From contig JAJYXB010000004.1 in the NCBI GenBank assembly GCA_021791195.1, positions 1 through 64,000 of the forward strand: DNA of 64,000 bases, given 5' to 3'. The notes beneath the pieces were generated by a model, which had not been told where the DNA came from, made no database searches, and was given only the letters and a program-made list of their open reading frames with translations. Positions within the stretch are counted from its first letter, which is position 1, and each line of letters begins with the position of its first letter. A program made the translations under genes and the position numbers. The DNA comes from Actinomycetes bacterium. Its GTDB lineage: Bacteria > Actinomycetota > Thermoleophilia > BMS3ABIN01. Shown here piece by piece: positions 1 through 9,953 of the stretch.

Positions 1-126
1 CGGCTGCTGAAACCGATCGGCGACATCCCGCCGGCAGAACTGGAAGCTCAATATCGTGGACAAGAAGGCAGAGAAATCATAGAGTTACCCAAACAAACGA
101 GTCTCCGGTAAACCCGGGGCGATTCA
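1..126 (+). mobile_element. IS3-family insertion sequence, right-end remnant
   Basis: Bases 1-111 are open from the window edge and encode the last 36 residues of a transposase, with RLLKPIGDIPPAE followed further on by KQTSLR before TAA. Both are typical of the C-termini of IS3-family OrfB integrase-type transposases. After the stop, the minus strand read inward from base 126 begins TGAATCGCCCCGGG, which looks like the terminal inverted repeat of this group, so the IS end is placed at base 126. The sequence right next to it is coding sequence of a VirD4-like gene, so the element interrupts that gene. The rest of the IS, including its catalytic core, is left of the window. Confidence 0.7.
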
Positions 127-470
127 AGTTCTAGAGTCTGCGTATACGGGTCTATTCCTTCTTGCTGTTCGAGTGGGTTGAAGCCGATGATGTTGTCCGG
201 GTCGGTCATTTCCACCAGCGTGACATTTCGGAAATCCTTTAGATTCCCAACAATGTCGTTTACGAGGTCGCCGTGGGGATCGATAACACCGCACCCATTC
301 CCATTCATGATGTCGCCGAGAATCCAAGTGGCGAGTCCTTTGGATTTTCCGACACCTGAGCTTCCCAGGACATAGACATGCGTCGACCTGTCTTCCTCAG
401 GCAAATAAAAACCGACGATATCGTCGGTTGCGGGCTTGCATGTCATCCCTAGTTTCAATGCAGACTTCAT
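127..470 (-). pseudogene. VirD4/TraD-like coupling ATPase, 5' fragment cut by an IS
   Basis: About 114 genuine N-terminal residues remain. They contain a Walker A loop, GSSGVGKSKG at residues 36-45, and the downstream GVIDPHGDLV strand typical of type IV secretion coupling proteins and TraM/VirD4-like DNA-pumping ATPases, followed by NPLEQQEG and DPYTQ as in full-length relatives. Such proteins are usually 500-700 residues. Here homology ends at base 127 where the IS3 end begins, and the remaining open frame down to base 48 is read from IS DNA. The start ATG at 470 is only approximate for a family that often has more N-terminal sequence. The gene cannot make a working coupling protein unless the other half lies beyond the IS and the IS leaves precisely. 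Confidence 0.65.
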
Positions 471-671
471 TGCATTGATTATAATACAATGATTCGAGAT
501 CGAAGCGGAGAAAATTTAGTAATGCAGAGAAAGACTATTCTTAGCATTCTTTTTCTTAATCACAGTACGTGCTACAGCCGAGGGCATATCAACATTAGCA
601 GTGAGGGAGCGAAGCAGGCATTGCGTCGTTTAGTCTGAGAGTTCTTGTTTTGCGGACTTCCGAGGAGAGTT

Positions 672-1463
672 GTGTTCGATTTTATAGATCAAATAATTAC
701 ATATATCGAGGGCCATGAGTTGCTCTTTCAACTGGTTTTAACCGGTATTGTATCGATTCTTTCTGCTTTATTTGGTTATTACTACTTTACCCTGAAGGAT
801 TTCTTTGTCCGCAGGCGACCGCTAAGTAGGGTTTTTTGTTTTGAAAAGAATTCTACTGTTTACATCACCTCTGGAGACGATCCGGCTAGCGGTACTGATA
901 AACCACCCATCATGCAACCAGGGGATGTAGCAGCTCTAATTGAACTTTATAGCACTCTCCGAAGTAATCGAAAGGATCTTAATGTGGTTTACTACCCTTC
1001 TGGGACTCTTCCTGCAGATGCTCTTGATGAAAATCTGATATCAGTTGGTGGCCCGCATTCTAATTCGACTACAAATTTACTATTAGAAAAATTATCCAGT
1101 TCTCTGAATTTTGATAAAAAAGGCCGGTTGCTTTCGCCAACCCTTGATAAGCCTCTGAGCTTTAAGGCCAAGGGAAATACGGCCGTCGACTATGGTTTTT
1201 TTATAAAATCTCGCAATCCCTTCAGGAGCGATGAATCCAAGTATGTGTATATTATTGCTGGATGTGAGACATGGGGAGTTCTGGCTGCGGCTAGACGTCT
1301 TTCATGGCTGTATGCTCCAACCTCTATACGTAAATTGGCCAAGCTCTTTAAAAACAAACCTATTTATCAAATTGTAAAGACCGACATGATTAATTTTCAC
1401 GTTACAGACATCAGTGTTGTCGATCAGGGAACGTGGCCAATAGAGACTCATGTAAACTTATGA
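672..1463 (+). CDS. Unknown membrane-anchored protein, first gene of AT-rich cassette
   Basis: The GTG at 672 is preceded by GAGGAGAG at 662-669, a good ribosome-binding site, and is preferred over an upstream in-frame TTG at 645. The 263-residue product has one hydrophobic segment near residues 15-40 (LLFQLVLTGIVSILSALFG), a basic stretch (VRRR), then a cytosolic domain. Recurring-looking motifs are PGDVAALIELYSTL, SVGGPHSN, DYGFFIKSRNPF and IIAGCETWGVLAAARRL. The GGP-N and IAG-W-G-AA pattern suggests a Rossmann-like ligand-binding fold, but I cannot assign a family. Its stop overlaps the next ATG (ATGA), so it is co-translated with the glycosyltransferase. Base composition is much more AT-rich than the 10-60 kb region, consistent with recent transfer. 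Confidence 0.75.
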   Translation: MFDFIDQIITYIEGHELLFQLVLTGIVSILSALFGYYYFTLKDFFVRRRPLSRVFCFEKNSTVYITSGDDPASGTDKPPIMQPGDVAALIELYSTLRSNRKDLNVVYYPSGTLPADALDENLISVGGPHSNSTTNLLLEKLSSSLNFDKKGRLLSPTLDKPLSFKAKGNTAVDYGFFIKSRNPFRSDESKYVYIIAGCETWGVLAAARRLSWLYAPTSIRKLAKLFKNKPIYQIVKTDMINFHVTDISVVDQGTWPIETHVNL

Positions 1464-2386
1464 ACCTCCATAAAGCAAGTATAATCATGGTTGTAAACGA
1501 ATCTTGTGGAACGCATATTGACCAAGCCATAAGCTCTGCGGTAAATCAGAATTATCCCCCGTCCTCGTTTGAGATAATTATATTCTTTGATGGAACAGAC
1601 AATCACTATTGGAATTTTTTATGCGAGATAACATCAAACATTGAATCTCCTACTATACGTCTTATTCGCGGTGTTGGGGATGAAGGGATTGGGGCAGCGA
1701 GAAATAATGCTATCGAGGCTGCGAGTAACGAGTTTCTCATGCTTCTTGACGGCGATGATTATTTATTTCCAGACGCGCTGCTTTCATGTTCTCATGTAAT
1801 TAGACCCGGAATCGATTTAGTATTTTCAGATTGGACCAAGGTTGATGTTTTTGGTAACGTAAGATACTTAAATAATTCTGGTCGAATCTATTTTCAGCTC
1901 CACAAAAGATTCAAAGGGTCAATTTATGACCCACTTTTTTATTTCATCTTTATTCTTCAATGCCAATTTATACGCCGATCAGCTTTTTTTAAAGCGGGAT
2001 GTTATAACCCCTTGATGACTGTCGGCGAAAGTTCTGATTTTTTAATTCGTTTATCTCAGATAAGCAAAGGTATCAACTTTGATTATGTTCCGGATGCTCT
2101 CTATGCATATCGAGATAATCCAAGAGGGGTTTGTAATACAAAAAAGGAATTATTAATGAAGAATCGTTTATCAAATATGTCGTCTCACGTAAAAACTCAT
2201 TGCCAAGAAATTATGTCGATGAGATACTTTGGTCGTGTACAACCAGGTAATGTTAGATTATTCATTCCAGAGTTCAATAGAAAGTGTTCTTTTTTCGAGC
2301 TGCCGTATGTTGACTATATCAATAAGAAAATCATAGATGGTACGACCGCGTATAAACAAACCGGAGAGTTAGCACATCAGATATGA
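1460..2386 (+). CDS. Family 2 glycosyltransferase
   Basis: This 308-residue protein starts at an ATG that overlaps the previous stop by four bases. It has the GT-A fold layout: an early strand KASIIMVVNE, the SAVNQNYP segment that follows the first helix in GT2 enzymes, GIGAARNNAIEAA, and the metal/nucleotide-sugar motif LLDGDD near residue 97. It should move a sugar from a nucleotide donor to an unknown acceptor in the cytoplasm. No transmembrane helix is evident. It ends by ATGA overlap with the hydrolase gene, so cassette genes 1-4 form one translationally coupled operon. Substrate is unknown. An alternative in-frame GTG at 1433 lies inside the previous gene and is less likely. Confidence 0.85.
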   Translation: MNLHKASIIMVVNESCGTHIDQAISSAVNQNYPPSSFEIIIFFDGTDNHYWNFLCEITSNIESPTIRLIRGVGDEGIGAARNNAIEAASNEFLMLLDGDDYLFPDALLSCSHVIRPGIDLVFSDWTKVDVFGNVRYLNNSGRIYFQLHKRFKGSIYDPLFYFIFILQCQFIRRSAFFKAGCYNPLMTVGESSDFLIRLSQISKGINFDYVPDALYAYRDNPRGVCNTKKELLMKNRLSNMSSHVKTHCQEIMSMRYFGRVQPGNVRLFIPEFNRKCSFFELPYVDYINKKIIDGTTAYKQTGELAHQI

Positions 2387-3171
2387 GCTTACAAAAATTT
2401 ACATTAATTACAAATGATGATTTCAGACTTTCATTGGTATTGGAAAAGCTAAGTTCTGAATGTTCAGGTCATGTTGTGCTTGCTCATGGAATTACTAGCG
2501 ACAAGAATGAAGACGGTTTCTATACTCGCTTATCTCAATACTTAGCGGAAAACATGTACATGGTTTCGCGATTCGACTTCAGGGGTCACGGAGAAAGTTC
2601 AGGAAACAGCAAGGATTTTAACGTGAATGGGCAGATTGAAGACTTTTCGACAGTTTTAGACTGGGCAAGTGATAGTTATCAGCTACCGATTGCCATCATA
2701 GCAGCTAGCTTTGGTGCGCCTGCGGCAATCAATACCACAATCGATCATGAGTCCATTATTCACGCATTGGTACTTCTTAATCCCGTTCTTGACTTTAATA
2801 GAACTTTTGTAAATCCAGAAGTACCGTGGCTAAAGGGTAAATTCTCATCTGACATTTTAATTTCAGCATTAAACAATAACGGCATTGAACTTACTCCCGA
2901 CTTCACTCTAGGCAAGAAATTAATACGCGAGCTACTTGAATTAAGACCTTATGAAAAACTCACAAGAATTAAATGCCCTGTACTTAGTATCCACGGCGAT
3001 CATGATGAGTATGTTCCCTATGAAGTCACAGCACAGTATTACAAGGCTAACGAAAAATCTAGATTGCTTACGATAGAGGGGGCCAACCATGGCTTCGGAA
3101 TTGAAAATGAGCAAATAGTTTTCACTTCATGTAAAGAATGGCTAGACCAAAATCTGATCAATGCAAATTGA
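2383..3171 (+). CDS. Alpha/beta hydrolase (serine aminopeptidase S33-like)
   Basis: The 262-residue protein has the alpha/beta hydrolase core: VLAHGITSDKNEDGF oxyanion region, RFDFRGHGESSG, a nucleophile elbow AASFGA with Ser near residue 109 (Ala in the usual first Gly place), HGDHDEYVP supplying the acid near 208, and GANHGF supplying the catalytic His near 235. No signal peptide is seen, so it probably acts in the cytoplasm on an ester or thioester. It sits between a glycosyltransferase and an acyltransferase with overlapping ends (ATGA upstream, 11-base overlap downstream), which suggests it edits or loads an acyl group on the same glycosylated product. The substrate cannot be told from sequence. 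Confidence 0.85.
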   Translation: MSLQKFTLITNDDFRLSLVLEKLSSECSGHVVLAHGITSDKNEDGFYTRLSQYLAENMYMVSRFDFRGHGESSGNSKDFNVNGQIEDFSTVLDWASDSYQLPIAIIAASFGAPAAINTTIDHESIIHALVLLNPVLDFNRTFVNPEVPWLKGKFSSDILISALNNNGIELTPDFTLGKKLIRELLELRPYEKLTRIKCPVLSIHGDHDEYVPYEVTAQYYKANEKSRLLTIEGANHGFGIENEQIVFTSCKEWLDQNLINAN

Positions 3172-3802
3172 CAAGACAAGTAGGATAATGGCCAATGTCG
3201 AATTTGGTCAAAACATCGAGATTGGGTGCTTCACTGTCATTGGCGCTCAACTTCCTAAAGCCTGGGCAAGTCCGAAAAATGATATTACTTTGATAGGCAA
3301 TAGTTGTAGTATTGGAAACCACGTCGTCATTTATGAAGGCTCAAAAATTAGTGATGAGTGTTTCATTGATGATTACTGCCGCATCGGAAGCGATTCTATA
3401 ATAGGCCGGAATTCAATGATCTTATATGGAGCAAAAATCTATCAAGACGTTCAAATCGGCAAAGGTTGCCGAATCGGTGGTTTTTGTTGTAATAGAACAA
3501 GCATCGGTAATAATGTAACAATGATGGGAAGATTGATTCACAGCTACAGAGAACCATTTGGCGAATGGTCGAAGAATGAAGTTTCACCTGTGGTGCAAGA
3601 TGAAAGTATTATCGGATGTGGAGCCTTGATTGTTGGGGATGTAATAATTCACAAAAACTCGTATGTGGCAGCCGGAGCTATTGTAACGAAAAGCGTGCCT
3701 TCACACCATATTGCTGTAGGGGCAGATATCATCCATCTGGAAGATTGGCATGGGACATTAACATCGGACATATTTTTTGTTGAGATGGAAAATCCTTATT
3801 GA
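3161..3802 (+). CDS. Hexapeptide-repeat (left-handed beta-helix) acyltransferase
   Basis: The 213-residue protein is largely hexapeptide repeats of the [LIV]-G-x4 type, such as IGNSCSIGNHVVIYEG, ISDECFIDDYCRIG and VQIGKGCRIGG, ending with AAGAIVTKSVPSHHIAVG, a common C-terminal signature of sugar O- or N-acyltransferases. It should work as a trimer using acyl-CoA or acyl-ACP. It is the last plus-strand gene of the cassette and overlaps the hydrolase gene by 11 bases. Whether the acceptor is a sugar, as the neighbouring glycosyltransferase suggests, is inference. Confidence 0.85.
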   Translation: MQIDKTSRIMANVEFGQNIEIGCFTVIGAQLPKAWASPKNDITLIGNSCSIGNHVVIYEGSKISDECFIDDYCRIGSDSIIGRNSMILYGAKIYQDVQIGKGCRIGGFCCNRTSIGNNVTMMGRLIHSYREPFGEWSKNEVSPVVQDESIIGCGALIVGDVIIHKNSYVAAGAIVTKSVPSHHIAVGADIIHLEDWHGTLTSDIFFVEMENPY

Positions 3803-3833
3803 AAATTGCGCCTCGGTCGGCTGCCGGCATACC

Positions 3834-5153
3834 TCATAATTCTCCATATTTTACAGCATCCATTAGATTTATTGACTGTGGGAAATTACTTTGCAAATGG
3901 CTTCTTATTTTTGGCAATGTTTCCCTGTTAATCGTAGGGTGCCGAATAATACTTCCATGGAAGTAATTATCAACGATCTGCGAAGTATCGATATAATCTT
4001 CCCGCCGATATTTTCTGTACAATTTCGTGCCTTTTAGGGGGTACAATAGGCTGAAGAAGGCATAATCTGCTTTAATCTCAATATTGAAATCGTATGTCCT
4101 TTGGATATCTTCAATAGTTTCAGTAGGAAAACCAATAATGTTAAATGATGCAGTCTTGATATCTACTTTACGGCAGCGCTCGAAAGCATTTAAGATTTCT
4201 TTGTCGCTTACATGCTTATTTAATAAGTTCTTGCGGATTTCTTCGTCACCTGTCTCCACCCCCATGTGAATCCGAGAGCATCCTGCGAGTTTTAGATCGT
4301 TGATTAAGGCATCGCTGAGTCCGCAGACTGTATCCGGTCTGGCTAGAAAGCCAAAGTGTTTATTCACCCTCCTTTCAATATACTGAGCGCAAAATTCTCT
4401 AGCCCGATGTTCGTTAAAGATAAAATTCTCATCTGTAAAAAAAAATTCATCGAACGAGAATTTATGTTTCAGGAATAGCATCTCATCAATTACATCGTTT
4501 ATTCTGCGATATCTCATCTTTTGTTTTAATTTCTTCCGAATTTCTCGATTGCAACAAAATGAACAACTGTAATTACAACCTCTCGAACTTGATATAAAGA
4601 GACGCCTTTTGTATCCGTCGCCGAAGTCGTTTACGCTGATTATTGAGTTGTATCGGAAAACGGTGTAGTCGAGCCATGGTAGATTATCAAGACAGTCAAC
4701 TTGAGCGATTTGCCGATCAACTCCTAAATTGTCTTCTTTTGTCCATAATCCATGAATTTGGTCATATGGTGTTTCATTAAGAAGCTGGTTTAACAAGAAT
4801 TCGCCGTCACCCACACAAACTAGATCGACACCTATCCTATTTAGACAATAACGAGGAAATAGCGAAGGAAAGATGCCACCGAATATAATGGGGACATTTA
4901 TTGAATCCTTTAAGGTCTCACTGAGTGTAAATGCGTGATAAGAATGTATTTCGGTAGTTGAAATACCAATCATTTTTGGTTGTAAACAGCAAATCTTCTC
5001 TATTATGCTTGCATCAGAATCATAATATGTATCAAATACAAAAACTTGATGGCCTTTCGAACGCAAATAAGCCGAGATGCTTCCAATACCAATCGAAATT
5101 TGTGCGTAAGACGCGGGACCATCATTGAGATAAATCAAAGCTAAATCTGGCAT
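3834..5153 (-). CDS. B12-binding-domain radical SAM protein
   Basis: The 439-residue protein has an N-terminal B12-binding-like Rossmann domain (ISIGIGSISAYLRSKGHQVFVFD; later IGISTTEIHSYHAF and IIFGGIFPSL), then a radical SAM barrel with the cluster motif GCNYSCSFCC, cysteines near residues 192, 196 and 199, and downstream ETGDEEIR and NIIGFPTETIED, typical of the Elp3/MiaB/NifB-like superfamily. Members carry out methylations, rearrangements or C-C bond chemistry in antibiotic, lipid and glycan biosynthesis. It is convergent with the four-gene operon, 31 bases apart, and shares its AT-rich composition, so it probably arrived with it. Its start at 5153 is the first ATG. Substrate unknown. 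Confidence 0.85.
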   Translation of the reverse strand: MPDLALIYLNDGPASYAQISIGIGSISAYLRSKGHQVFVFDTYYDSDASIIEKICCLQPKMIGISTTEIHSYHAFTLSETLKDSINVPIIFGGIFPSLFPRYCLNRIGVDLVCVGDGEFLLNQLLNETPYDQIHGLWTKEDNLGVDRQIAQVDCLDNLPWLDYTVFRYNSIISVNDFGDGYKRRLFISSSRGCNYSCSFCCNREIRKKLKQKMRYRRINDVIDEMLFLKHKFSFDEFFFTDENFIFNEHRAREFCAQYIERRVNKHFGFLARPDTVCGLSDALINDLKLAGCSRIHMGVETGDEEIRKNLLNKHVSDKEILNAFERCRKVDIKTASFNIIGFPTETIEDIQRTYDFNIEIKADYAFFSLLYPLKGTKLYRKYRREDYIDTSQIVDNYFHGSIIRHPTINRETLPKIRSHLQSNFPQSINLMDAVKYGEL

Positions 5154-5237
5154 GACGAACTTTCTAATTATGTGATTCGATATGTGAAAGCGGAATTGAT
5201 TGGTCAGATTATACTTAATTTGATTTCATTCCATTTT

Positions 5238-5273
5238 GAAAAATAGGCACAGCCATGTTGAAAAGCTGTGCCT
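5238..5273 (-). terminator. Rho-independent terminator after radC
   Basis: A perfect 9-bp inverted repeat, AGGCACAGC (5245-5253) and GCTGTGCCT (5265-5273), is followed on the minus strand by ATTTTTC. It lies just past the stop of the RadC gene at 5283 and would end minus-strand transcription before the radical SAM gene's promoter region. Confidence 0.75.
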
Positions 5274-5282
5274 TGTTGCGCA

Positions 5283-5699
5283 TTATCGCATGATACTCCG
5301 AACCTTCCCGCCCGCTGCTATGATGACCTGGTCAAGAAGCTGGATTCCCAAGATCTCTGCCGAGTCCTTGAGTCTGCTGGCTAACATCAGGTCCTCTTTG
5401 CTTGCTTCGGGGTTGCCACTCGGATGATTGTGGACGGCTATGATAGCAACTGTGCCGTTCATGACCGCCTTTCGCATCACGTCAGCTGGTCTCACCAGGC
5501 AGGAATTCACAGTACCGATTGCCGTAATCTCCTTCTCGATAACCTGGTTCCTGGCGTTCAGGTGTAGTATCCAAAAGCATTCGCGGTCAGCGAAAGCTTC
5601 CTCGGCCATGTTCTCCTGAACAAACCGGCCTACATCCTGCGGGGATCGGATCGGCTCACCCTTTGCGACCTCCTTGACCTTCAGTAGTTCAAACTTCAT
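5283..5699 (-). CDS. Short RadC family protein (JAB/MPN+ domain)
   Basis: The start at 5699 is chosen because the minus strand reads AAAGGAGGAAGTC before ATG, a near-perfect ribosome-binding site; a longer frame to 5738 lacks this. The 138-residue product is a single MPN+/JAMM domain: FWILHLNARNQVI, then HNHPSGNPEASKEDL with the His-x-His...Ser...Asp zinc motif, then LLDQVIIA. Chromosomal RadC is about 220 residues with an N-terminal helix-hairpin-helix region; the short form is typical of plasmids, genomic islands and antirestriction loci. The name 'DNA repair' is historical and the real role is unclear. Confidence 0.85.
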   Translation of the reverse strand: MKFELLKVKEVAKGEPIRSPQDVGRFVQENMAEEAFADRECFWILHLNARNQVIEKEITAIGTVNSCLVRPADVMRKAVMNGTVAIIAVHNHPSGNPEASKEDLMLASRLKDSAEILGIQLLDQVIIAAGGKVRSIMR

Positions 5700-5935
5700 G
5701 ACTTCCTCCTTTGAATTTGGGCAGGCTAAAGCCAGCACTGGTTTTGGAACGCATTGGGTGGGTGGTGGTATTTGAGCCTTCAGCCCGGTTCAGGGACGCT
5801 TACCCGCAGCCTGAACCGGACCTTCCACAACCGGTGAAGGGCAATACCTACCTAGTGTTCAAGGTGCGCGGTAAGTTTGCAGAAATTGAGCCTCGTCCTT
5901 TTGGGATCTACTCCGAAGGCTCATGCCCTGGCGGG

Positions 5936-6775
5936 CTATTCCAACAGTGAAGTTGGTGAATCAATGAAGGGAGAAAGCCAAACGCTTCCAAGGGGGCTGT
6001 CATTCTGAATCGCTGAGAAGGTCGTAAACAAGAACATCTGCCTTCCCCCCACTTTCCCTGTTGCCTGGATCAAGTTAGCCAGGCGTCTTTCACTTTCAGC
6101 GACCGTCAGGACGCGAAAGTGATTGTATCCGTATTCCTCTTTATACTGACCGGACTTCCAATATCTCTTGTAAGCCACAATCTTCTCAGCAAATCTCGAC
6201 AGTGTTTCTGTTCCCATATCAACCTCAAGAAAGAAGATATGCTTGCCCCTGCCGCTTTGAATGCCAAAGAAAGCATCCGGGGCGACAACGAAATATTTCT
6301 TCTTCGCGCCAGTCATCGAGATTCGTCTCAGATGGGACTTGTCGCCTCGCTGGTAGAAAAGAAGCTCCTCGCGTCTGCCAGCAAGCGCAAGGTCGAGACA
6401 AACCCTGAACTCAGAAACTCCGAGGGTGTGTTCAAGAAATAGAAACTCGACGCGATTATTGGCGCGGTTCCACCTGACCTTGTGGCGGTCGATTTCAAGA
6501 GTGGCGGCCACAATGTCAGCCCCACAGCGGTCAAGGGCATAAACAATCTGATGGCTTCCGACCGCGACTGGCTTGATTAGCTTGTCCAGGAAATTGTGCT
6601 CATCAAGTTTCTTCAGTCTTCGATTGCAAGCAAAGACCGAAGCGCCGGCGAAATGGAGCCGCTGGATTTGATCCCGTTTCAGAAAGCGGTTCTCGTACAC
6701 AGCGAGAATAATGGCAACGTCACGAGCCGTCAGTTGCATTGGAGCTATTCGATTGTTTCTTCTTGCTGTTTTCAT
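5936..6775 (-). CDS. Replication-relaxation family protein
   Basis: The 279-residue protein resembles the replication-relaxation (Replic_Relax) family found on plasmids and integrative elements of Gram-positive bacteria. An N-terminal winged-helix region (LTARDVAIILAVYENRFLKRD, then RRLKKLDEHNFL and YALDRCGADIVA) would bind DNA. The C-terminal part (RVEFLFLEHTLGVSEFRV; ...VAPDAFFGI; FFLEVDMGTETL...KIVAYKRYW) looks like a PD-(D/E)xK-type nuclease core with D...E-D. It is encoded beside the hairpin/direct-repeat array at 6811-7008, the expected partner if that array is an origin. Starts at 6775 and 6739 are both possible; neither has a strong ribosome-binding site. Confidence 0.75.
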   Translation of the reverse strand: MKTARRNNRIAPMQLTARDVAIILAVYENRFLKRDQIQRLHFAGASVFACNRRLKKLDEHNFLDKLIKPVAVGSHQIVYALDRCGADIVAATLEIDRHKVRWNRANNRVEFLFLEHTLGVSEFRVCLDLALAGRREELLFYQRGDKSHLRRISMTGAKKKYFVVAPDAFFGIQSGRGKHIFFLEVDMGTETLSRFAEKIVAYKRYWKSGQYKEEYGYNHFRVLTVAESERRLANLIQATGKVGGRQMFLFTTFSAIQNDSPLGSVWLSPFIDSPTSLLE

Positions 6776-6810: not shown

Positions 6811-6847
6811 GCGCCCGCAGGGCGCGCCGTCTGGCTGTAAGCCAGAC
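6811..6847. repeat. Two adjacent perfect hairpins
   Basis: GCGCCC-GCA-GGGCGC (6811-6825) and GTCTGGC-TGTAA-GCCAGAC (6829-6847) are two perfect palindromes. They start the structured array that continues into the 83-bp repeats and lie in the leader of the replication-relaxation gene. Confidence 0.7.
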
Positions 6848-7008
6848 TCCCCTCGCCTCTCCAAAATGGGTTTATACAACTGAGGCGGGGGGAGTCGGGC
6901 TTCGTTTGTGCCTTCCAAACGAAGACAGACTCCCCTCGCCTCTCCAAAATGGGTTTATACAACTGAGGCGGGGGGAGTCGGGCTTCGTTTGTGCCTTCCA
7001 AACGAAGA
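6843..7008. repeat. Two exact tandem 83-bp repeats, each with two hairpins
   Basis: Bases 6843-6925 and 6926-7008 are identical. Each unit holds a 15-bp stem, GACTCCCCTCGCCTC pairing with GAGGCGGGGGGAGTC (one mismatch, about 21-base loop), and a perfect 9-bp stem, CTTCGTTTG-TGCCTTC-CAAACGAAG. The region has no convincing reading frame. Tandem, hairpin-rich DNA next to a replication-relaxation gene and near DnaA-box-like sequence fits an origin of replication or transfer, or the target of a nicking enzyme. Function is inferred only from position and structure. Confidence 0.85.
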
Positions 7009-8367: not shown

Positions 8368-9942
8368 ATGAAATGCATCATTTATCTTCGTGTATCAACT
8401 AAAGAGCAGGCTCAAAGGCTGGGGACCAAAGAAGGCTATTCAATTCCCGGCCAAAGAGAAGCTTGCCTTAAATATATTAAAGAAAAAGGCTGGGAAGTAA
8501 TTGATGAGTATGTGGACCGCGGAGAGTCGGCTAAAAGCTCACGGCGTCCCCAACTTCAGGAAATGCTCTCGCGCATCAGGAAAGAAAAAGACGTGGAAGC
8601 GGTCGTGGTTCACAAGATTGATCGCCTTGCCCGCAACATGGAAGACCACATAACGATAAAGGCCGTTCTCAAGCGGGCTGGTGCTGGGCTTGTTTCCGTT
8701 GTTGAAAATATCGAAGATTCTGCTTCCGGTCATTTGATTGAAGGTATTCATGCACTCATGGCCGAGTTCTATTCCGAGAACCTTGGAATGGAAGTCAGAA
8801 AAGGAATGGAACAGAAGGTTAAGCAAGGCGGTTGGCCTTTTAGAGCTCCTATGGGCTACAAGAACGTGAGGGTCGGCGGTGATGCCCGCCGGGGAATGGC
8901 GAAAACAGAAATTGACCCCGAGACTTCCCCGTACATAAAAGAAGCTTTTGAGCTTTATGCCTCGGGAAATTATAGCATCCAGCAGATCAGGGATTATCTA
9001 CTGAAAAACGGAATCGGGAGCAGACACAAGGAAGGCGAGGCATTAGCCCACTCCACTGTCAACAATATGCTTGCCAATCCTTTCTACATCGGCAAGATCA
9101 AATTCGACGGCGTCTATCATAAAGGCGCTCAGGAACACTTAATCACAAAGAAGCTCTTCAACAGGGTTCAAAGCGTCCTCGAAGCTAATAACGTTGCTGG
9201 GGTTCGGCATCGAGCCTACGGCCACTATCTAAAAGGAACTCTCTTCTGTGAGACTTGCGGTTCAAGGCTCTCGATTGATATGGCTAAAAATGCCTACACC
9301 TATTTTTACTGCCTGGGACAAAAACAAAAACACTCCAAAAAGAAGATCGAATGCCACGAAAAGTATGTTCAGGTTGAAGATATGGAAGCTCAAATGATCG
9401 AGCTTTACAAAAGAATTGAGATGCCAAAATCCTGGTCCAAGAAACTCGTTGAGGGATTTAATGAAGAGATTGTTGCCCAGCACTCCCAAAATACTATGGA
9501 AGAGGAATTCGCTTTAAAGCGAATTGAAAGGCTCAACCTTGAAAAGAAAAAGCTCATGCAAGCCTACTATGACGGAGCCGTTCCGATTGACGTATTAAAA
9601 GACGAGCAGAAACGGATAGCGGAAGAAATTGCCAAGATTGATGATAAACGTTCAACTAGCAACAACAATCTTGATCAGCACACTGAGGTTCTTGAAAAAG
9701 CAATCAGGATAGCCGAAAACTGCGCCCTGGCCTACGAGAAAGCCAAGCCGGAAACCCGGCAACTCTTTAATCAGGCTTTCTTTAAGAAGGTTTTTGTGAA
9801 GGATAAAAAAATCGAGGGCGTGAAATATACCGATCTATTCGGCACTTTGCTCTCGAAAAGTTCGAGTAAAAAAGAATTGGTGGGCGATACCGGGTTCGAA
9901 CCAGTGACCCCCAGCTTGTCGAGCTGGTGCTCTCCCAACTGA
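8368..9942 (+). CDS. Large serine recombinase (integrase)
   Basis: The 524-residue protein has an N-terminal resolvase domain (IIYLRVSTKEQ with catalytic Ser10 and Arg8; KIDRLARNMEDH), a recombinase domain (GYKNVRVGGDARRGM... STVNNMLANPFYIGKIKF), a zinc ribbon (LFCETCGSRL ... YFYC) near residues 292-320 and a long coiled coil near 365-440, the classic layout of phiC31/TnpX-type integrases. It starts four bases after the ImmA-like stop. Its final 20 or so residues (VGDTGFEPVTPS...) are encoded on the strand opposite tRNA-Val, so the frame crosses the attachment site and the C-terminus changes on excision. It should catalyse integration and, with a directionality factor, excision. Confidence 0.93.
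   Translation: MKCIIYLRVSTKEQAQRLGTKEGYSIPGQREACLKYIKEKGWEVIDEYVDRGESAKSSRRPQLQEMLSRIRKEKDVEAVVVHKIDRLARNMEDHITIKAVLKRAGAGLVSVVENIEDSASGHLIEGIHALMAEFYSENLGMEVRKGMEQKVKQGGWPFRAPMGYKNVRVGGDARRGMAKTEIDPETSPYIKEAFELYASGNYSIQQIRDYLLKNGIGSRHKEGEALAHSTVNNMLANPFYIGKIKFDGVYHKGAQEHLITKKLFNRVQSVLEANNVAGVRHRAYGHYLKGTLFCETCGSRLSIDMAKNAYTYFYCLGQKQKHSKKKIECHEKYVQVEDMEAQMIELYKRIEMPKSWSKKLVEGFNEEIVAQHSQNTMEEEFALKRIERLNLEKKKLMQAYYDGAVPIDVLKDEQKRIAEEIAKIDDKRSTSNNNLDQHTEVLEKAIRIAENCALAYEKAKPETRQLFNQAFFKKVFVKDKKIEGVKYTDLFGTLLSKSSSKKELVGDTGFEPVTPSLSSWCSPN
9878..9905. other. Probable attachment site in tRNA-Val 3' end
   Basis: The serine recombinase frame enters the tRNA from the left and stops inside it at 9942, placing the crossover in the shared T-arm/acceptor sequence. 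The other att copy should be a repeat of this tRNA 3' end at the far boundary of the element, outside the window. Exact core limits cannot be set from one side. Confidence 0.5.
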
Positions 9943-9953
9943 GCTAATCGCCC
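9878..9953 (-). tRNA. tRNA-Val (GAC)
   Basis: The minus strand folds as a standard 76-base tRNA with encoded CCA: acceptor GGGCGAT/ATCGCCC, D-arm GCTCAGTTGGGAGAGC, anticodon stem CCAGC/GCTGG, and T-arm ACTGG-TTCGAAC-CCGGT. The loop TCGACAA places GAC at positions 34-36. Position 33 is C rather than the near-universal U. The 3' half is the integration target of the element to the left. Confidence 0.93.

Follow-up and report, generated by a model that had tools for sequence, protein, structure and literature searches.

A four-gene unit of sugar and acyl enzymes with an exchangeable putative sensor protein, carried as cargo by an actinobacterial integrative element

A block of AT-rich genes close to a contig end of an assembly assigned to the Thermoleophilia (Actinomycetes bacterium, BMS3ABIN01; GenBank GCA_021791195.1, contig JAJYXB010000004.1) raises the question of whether its genes form one functional unit, and what that unit might do. 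The window, which is the whole stretch of 64,000 nucleotides that was analysed, holds five intact reading frames in this block. Four overlapping genes span positions 672-3802 of the plus strand, and a B12-type radical SAM gene is convergent with them across a gap of 31 bases (Table 1). The gene for protein 1 overlaps the GT2 gene, which starts with ATG at 1460, by 4 bases, the GT2 and hydrolase genes overlap by 4 bases, and the hydrolase and hexapeptide transferase genes by 11 bases. GTG at 672, which is preceded by GAGGAG, is more likely to be the start codon of protein 1 than TTG at 645. The five genes have 37-40% G+C (GC3 33-37%), whereas the element backbone has 46-53% and the chromosome 60.5%. 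The preliminary description of this block as an AT-rich five-gene cassette, with overlaps of 4 or 11 bases and a facing radical SAM gene, is thus borne out.

The block lies between the ATPase gene and the RadC gene of an integrative element at a tRNA-Val gene. Comparison by blastn with sister elements showed that homology is lost at about 427-430 (at up to 490 in two sisters) and restarts at 5232, from which we conclude that the five genes make up one discrete cargo block of about 4.8 kb. The gap between ATPase and RadC genes varies across the twelve sister loci: it is nearly empty in L033 and L034, with about 0.4 kb remaining in two sisters, and contains a Sir2 gene (2.7e-24) in L027 and an AbiJ-like gene (1.8e-12) in L032. 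The earlier suggestion that the genes are cargo at a variable place of an element is therefore supported. The carrier combines a recombinase at a tRNA gene, replication and transfer genes, and relatives elsewhere, as expected of an integrative element. Relatives of its backbone were found in 10 of 199 genomes of the class, including its own genome of 2.15 Mb, all belonging to the same family. Past the slot, the backbone continues with RadC, Replication-relaxation, HTH and ImmA genes and a large serine recombinase gene overlapping the tRNA gene. A direct repeat of 83 bases with 27-base inverted arms is present twice at 6839-7004, upstream of the Replication-relaxation gene, and similar copies occur at the matching place in sister elements; these repeats are possibly a replication or transfer origin. 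The window begins at the contig end, within an insertion sequence copy, and contig C14 (L039, positions 1-127) opens with the identical end. C14 contains the remains of another element from this family, with an ATPase, a DNA methyltransferase and a Vsr-like gene but no integrase side.

Table 1. Positions of the cassette genes and of the surrounding element features in the window
Feature	Position	Strand	Evidence
IS end interrupting ATPase gene	1..127	+	100% over 127 bases to contig C14 start; transposase 3' end by sequence inspection
Coupling/FtsK-type ATPase of element, N-terminal fragment (~126 aa)	48..470	-	84% identity to L034 ATPase
Variable cargo slot of element	428..5231	.	blastn of window against 12 sister loci and L039: homology ends before, restarts after
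Protein 1: one membrane helix and predicted cytoplasmic GGP domain	672..1463	+	Pfam S_layer_C E=0.022; homologs; AlphaFold2; Foldseek; hydropathy; TTG 645 alternative start
GT2 glycosyltransferase (GT-A fold), LDGDD motif intact	1460..2386	+	Pfam PF00535 E=4e-16; conserved in L050 and L064
Alpha/beta hydrolase, esterase-like	2383..3171	+	Pfam PF12146 E=3e-20; PDB matches include feruloyl/cinnamoyl esterases
Hexapeptide acyltransferase, left-handed beta-helix	3161..3802	+	Pfam PF00132 E=3e-21; best PDB match QdtC sugar N-acetyltransferase, 3e-20
B12-binding radical SAM protein, co-cargo	3834..5153	-	Pfam PF04055 and PF02310
RadC-like JAB-domain protein, element backbone	5283..5738	-	PF04002 E=4e-34
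Replication-relaxation protein, element backbone	5936..6775	-	PF13814 E=3e-31; sister elements 65-89% identical
Large serine recombinase, 3' end overlapping tRNA-Val (9878-9953)	8368..9942	+	PF00239, PF07508; tRNA by ARAGORN

The recurring unit consists of the four plus-strand genes without the radical SAM gene, i.e. three enzymes and a changing fourth component, and is found in distant actinobacteria. Adjacent core genes with a GGP-domain protein (see below) or a STAND protein are present in full in four independent genomes (the window, L050, L064 and L065) and loosely in a fifth (L066). In L050, from a metagenome-assembled genome of the Pseudonocardiales, a single run encodes the hydrolase (31% identity), the hexapeptide transferase (36%), a fusion of a TIR-like part with a GGP domain, and the GT2 (30%). 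When 329 genomes of this order were searched with the hexapeptide transferase profile alone (E <= 1e-15), three new genomes were matched, and each match was inside a related cassette, where the neighbouring genes encode an alpha/beta hydrolase, a glycosyltransferase (known or likely) and either a GGP or an NB-ARC/TPR protein. L064 has the gene order of the window, with an NB-ARC/TPR NTPase in place of protein 1 followed by GT2, hydrolase and hexapeptide transferase, and overlaps of 11, 4 and 4 bases. In L065, the hydrolase and hexapeptide transferase genes face genes for a GT25 protein and an HTH-like protein with a GGP domain. The looser L066 encodes an HTH and GGP protein, a glycosyltransferase-like protein that has no Pfam match, another HTH protein whose GGP-like part is degenerate, a hexapeptide transferase and a different hydrolase. 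By profile comparison (hhalign 97.6%, E=3e-12), the HTH proteins of L065 and L066 have GGP domains homologous to protein 1. The fourth component thus occurs in four types: membrane helix with GGP domain, TIR-like part with GGP domain, HTH with GGP domain, and NB-ARC/TPR NTPase.

Reverse searches returned the cassette copy of the hydrolase as the best match in the genome of L065 (G1120; 154 versus 76 bits) and as the only match in that of L064 (G982), while the cassette GT2 was the only match in the genomes of L050 (G792) and L064. Neither the window hydrolase nor the window GT2 returned a cassette copy as best or only match in the genome of L066. The five known cassettes, of which at least one (L050) is in a metagenome-assembled genome, correspond to about 1% of the genomes in one order. 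In 324 genomes of the phylum, a five-row hexapeptide transferase profile recovered, apart from the window's own protein, generic hexapeptide proteins only, at no more than 88 bits, and the loci fetched contained no cassette neighbours.

The expectation that all five genes recur together held for four of them, in L050, L064, L065 and loosely L066, and failed for the radical SAM gene. This gene had no tblastn match in any of these four loci and no match at E <= 1e-70 in the 199 genomes of the class outside its own genome, and we rejected it as a member of the system given its absence from the related cassettes. The NCBIfam families listed for its protein are of the B12-binding and methylthiotransferase kinds, and FxsB is not among the best 25. 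Fourteen further places in its own genome match this protein, most of them in one region (contig C24, 69-111 kb).

We use the term GGP domain for the alpha/beta domain of protein 1, which is apparently related to the outer domain of archaeal S-layer proteins. This soluble part carries the motifs GGPxxN, DxG..NPF and AG..G..AAAR. Hydropathy analysis revealed a single hydrophobic helix with an acidic N-terminal side, followed by the basic stretch VRRRPLSR; by the positive-inside rule, and because of the TIR-like and HTH fusions, the GGP domain is predicted to be cytoplasmic. Protein 1 scored 14.9 bits against S_layer_C (PF05124), under the Pfam gathering cut-off of 23.9, and the archaeal homolog in L056 is above it with 29.0 bits. 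The closest fold to the AlphaFold2 model of protein 1 (pLDDT 72) was 9fsa, the cell-wall anchoring domain of a Methanococcus S-layer protein, with a Foldseek probability of 1.00, yet this match is weak (E=3.2e-3, TM-score 0.57 on the target); the next matches, BcsB of cellulose synthase and GH67 alpha-glucuronidases, are weak as well (all E >= 3e-3). The GGP domain shares its motif, and may share its fold, with S_layer_C, the outer domain of methanogen S-layer proteins. While the latter forms a secreted surface layer, the GGP domain is predicted to be cytoplasmic and is joined to a membrane helix or to TIR-like or HTH modules.

Most GGP-domain proteins found are orphans, not accompanied by the three enzymes. 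The homologs of protein 1 are mainly such orphans in Streptomyces, several of which share the hydrophobic N-terminal helix. Identity to the window's GGP domain is 38% for the domain in L050, compared with 17-26% for full-length Streptomycetales orphans. In two Streptomycetales genomes, orphan genes for a membrane helix with a GGP domain (L041, 1513-2247; L042, 1489-2211) are separated from a tRNA-Ser gene by about 74 and 153 bases, and these sites may mark an insertion hotspot. The L056 protein (4798-5760), from a member of the Parvarchaeota, has an ArsR-like winged helix fused to the S-layer-outer-type domain, and is a possible archaeal ligand-sensing regulator.

The active-site residues of the core enzymes are conserved, suggesting that all three are catalytically active: Ser109, Asp208 and His236 of the hydrolase are kept in four of four cassette copies, and His127 of the hexapeptide transferase is invariant in all five. 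The best structural relatives of the GT2 are chondroitin-synthase-type GT2 enzymes. The TIR-like part of the L050 fusion matched a PADLOC TIR effector (E=3e-5) and Pfam PF10137 (CAP12/Pycsar TIR; E=9e-4, 19.7 under a cut-off of 24.7). The single-sequence AlphaFold model of this fusion was unusable (pLDDT 36).

A stable enzyme core combined with a swapped sensor or output protein suggests a conflict-type signalling system, and exchange among membrane, TIR-like, HTH and NB-ARC/TPR components is typical of conflict and signalling systems. Our tentative reading, which we place slightly short of an even chance, is that the four plus-strand genes form one functional unit of a constant enzyme core and an exchangeable sensor/output protein, with biological conflict as the likeliest setting. 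In the cytoplasm, the glycosyltransferase, hydrolase and hexapeptide enzyme would assemble a small acylated-sugar ligand or trim it. The GGP domain, and hence protein 1 as the proposed sensor/output protein, would read the presence or loss of this ligand, and the attached module would provide the output, by membrane disturbance, NAD+ cleavage or transcription. Such a unit, travelling in a variable cargo slot of an integrative element, might for instance mediate an abortive response to phage. Both the ligand and the conflict role are inferred: the sole basis for the acyl-sugar ligand is the enzyme types, and that for a defence role is the TIR-like and NB-ARC links together with the other cargo of the slot. 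A further-reaching version seems doubtful to us, namely that these genes represent a new class of bacterial immune signalling. Its messenger would be a cytoplasmic acyl-sugar under the control of a glycosyltransferase, an esterase and an acyltransferase, and an S-layer-outer-type domain would read this messenger and turn it into a membrane, NADase or transcriptional output.

A possible defence role, already considered in the preliminary description, gains weight from the TIR-like fusion, the NB-ARC/TPR replacement, the HTH fusions and the Sir2 and AbiJ-like genes in sister slots. Several observations speak against conflict: none of the four window proteins has a PADLOC match, the relatives sit in ordinary chromosomal settings as far as these were read, the five cassettes include a loose one, the TIR call is below the Pfam cut-off, and most GGP proteins are orphans. 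The HTH versions also fit simple gene regulation. Plasmids contained no match for protein 1, the GT2 or the hexapeptide transferase, nor for the TIR-like fusion or hexapeptide transferase of L050; phages contained none for protein 1 or the hexapeptide transferase, and no cassette was found in viral contigs. Nothing was found with a GGP alignment padded by synthetic variants, which were used only to steer search patterns. A frameshifted fragment of a cassette-type hydrolase (58-61% to L065) is present beside the integrase of an IMG/VR provirus (L103, 3959-4455).

The surface modification proposed earlier would imply an operon that alters the envelope or an exopolysaccharide, in which a sugar transferred by the GT2 receives an acyl group from the hexapeptide enzyme and is trimmed by the hydrolase, while the membrane protein holds the complex in place or controls it; as cargo, it would change the cell surface and perhaps mask phage receptors. 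The enzyme types are those of surface glycans, with QdtC-type sugar acyltransferases and chondroitin-synthase-type GT2 enzymes as structural relatives, and the closest, albeit weak (E >= 3e-3), folds of protein 1 are the cell-wall anchoring S-layer domain and BcsB. However, no flippase, polymerase or lipid-carrier enzyme is nearby, the neighbours listed for L050, L064 and L065 gave no sign of further glycan genes (flippase, polymerase, carrier transferase), and a TIR-like fusion and an NB-ARC/TPR replacement would be unexpected in such an operon. The possibility that the genes are the edge of an ordinary polysaccharide cluster is not supported, as element backbone genes bound the slot, nor was a glycan cluster noticed next to the related cassettes. 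Plain surface modification loses weight with the predicted cytoplasmic location of the protein 1 domain, and we regard it as unlikely. Slightly less probable still is a small-molecule biosynthesis cassette, in which the product is a signal or metabolite and the GGP protein a ligand-sensing regulator that plays no part in defence, as in actinobacterial autoregulatory systems. The HTH and GGP proteins of L065 and L066 resemble ligand-responsive regulators, and the archaeal GGP protein carries a fused winged helix, but the TIR-like output, the membrane-helix output and the NB-ARC/TPR replacement are left unexplained. Chance gathering of unrelated genes in a hotspot agrees with the varied cargo of sister slots and with the radical SAM gene, which looks like independent cargo; it is highly improbable overall and refuted for the four-gene set, as the same four families occur together in distant genomes and were found by searching with one of them.

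The conflict reading invites comparison with known systems. Parts of an eLife 2021 paper (PMC8195603) describe lectin-sensor conflict systems, in which NPCBM or FGS domains occur with TIR domains, AP-ATPase-TPR proteins and caspases, the NPCBM type being mostly actinobacterial. There too, a proposed binding domain is sometimes fused to TIR and linked to NB-ARC/TPR NTPases; the sensor here is of the unrelated GGP/S-layer-outer type and is joined to a fixed glycosyltransferase-hydrolase-acyltransferase core, a combination that these parts of the paper do not describe. In NTP-dependent conflict systems, glycosyltransferases and alpha/beta hydrolases are individual effectors or accessories, according to parts of a further report (PMC7159879). 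With CBASS, Pycsar and Thoeris, the proposed layout shares a signal-making enzyme and an exchangeable TIR or membrane effector, and among TIR models, those of Pycsar/CBASS come closest to the TIR-like part of L050. The core enzymes here, in contrast, act on sugar and acyl groups, and there is no ThsA/ThsB; neither a nucleotide cyclase nor a CD-NTase is among the window genes. The L064 NTPase is just below the FxSxx_TPR cut-off of the FxSxx-COOH system (295.8 versus 300 bits), but neither an FxSxx precursor nor an FxsB maturase was seen, and the window radical SAM protein is of the B12 type. In the literature, we found no description of this gene set and no described equivalent.

If the conflict reading is true, these genes would constitute an effector-swapping system built around sugar and acyl enzymes rather than a nucleotide cyclase, and TIR-like, HTH and membrane outputs would share a new sensor module, the GGP domain. 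Under the milder readings too, the cassette would provide a compact four-gene unit with an easily tested pairing of ligand and sensor.
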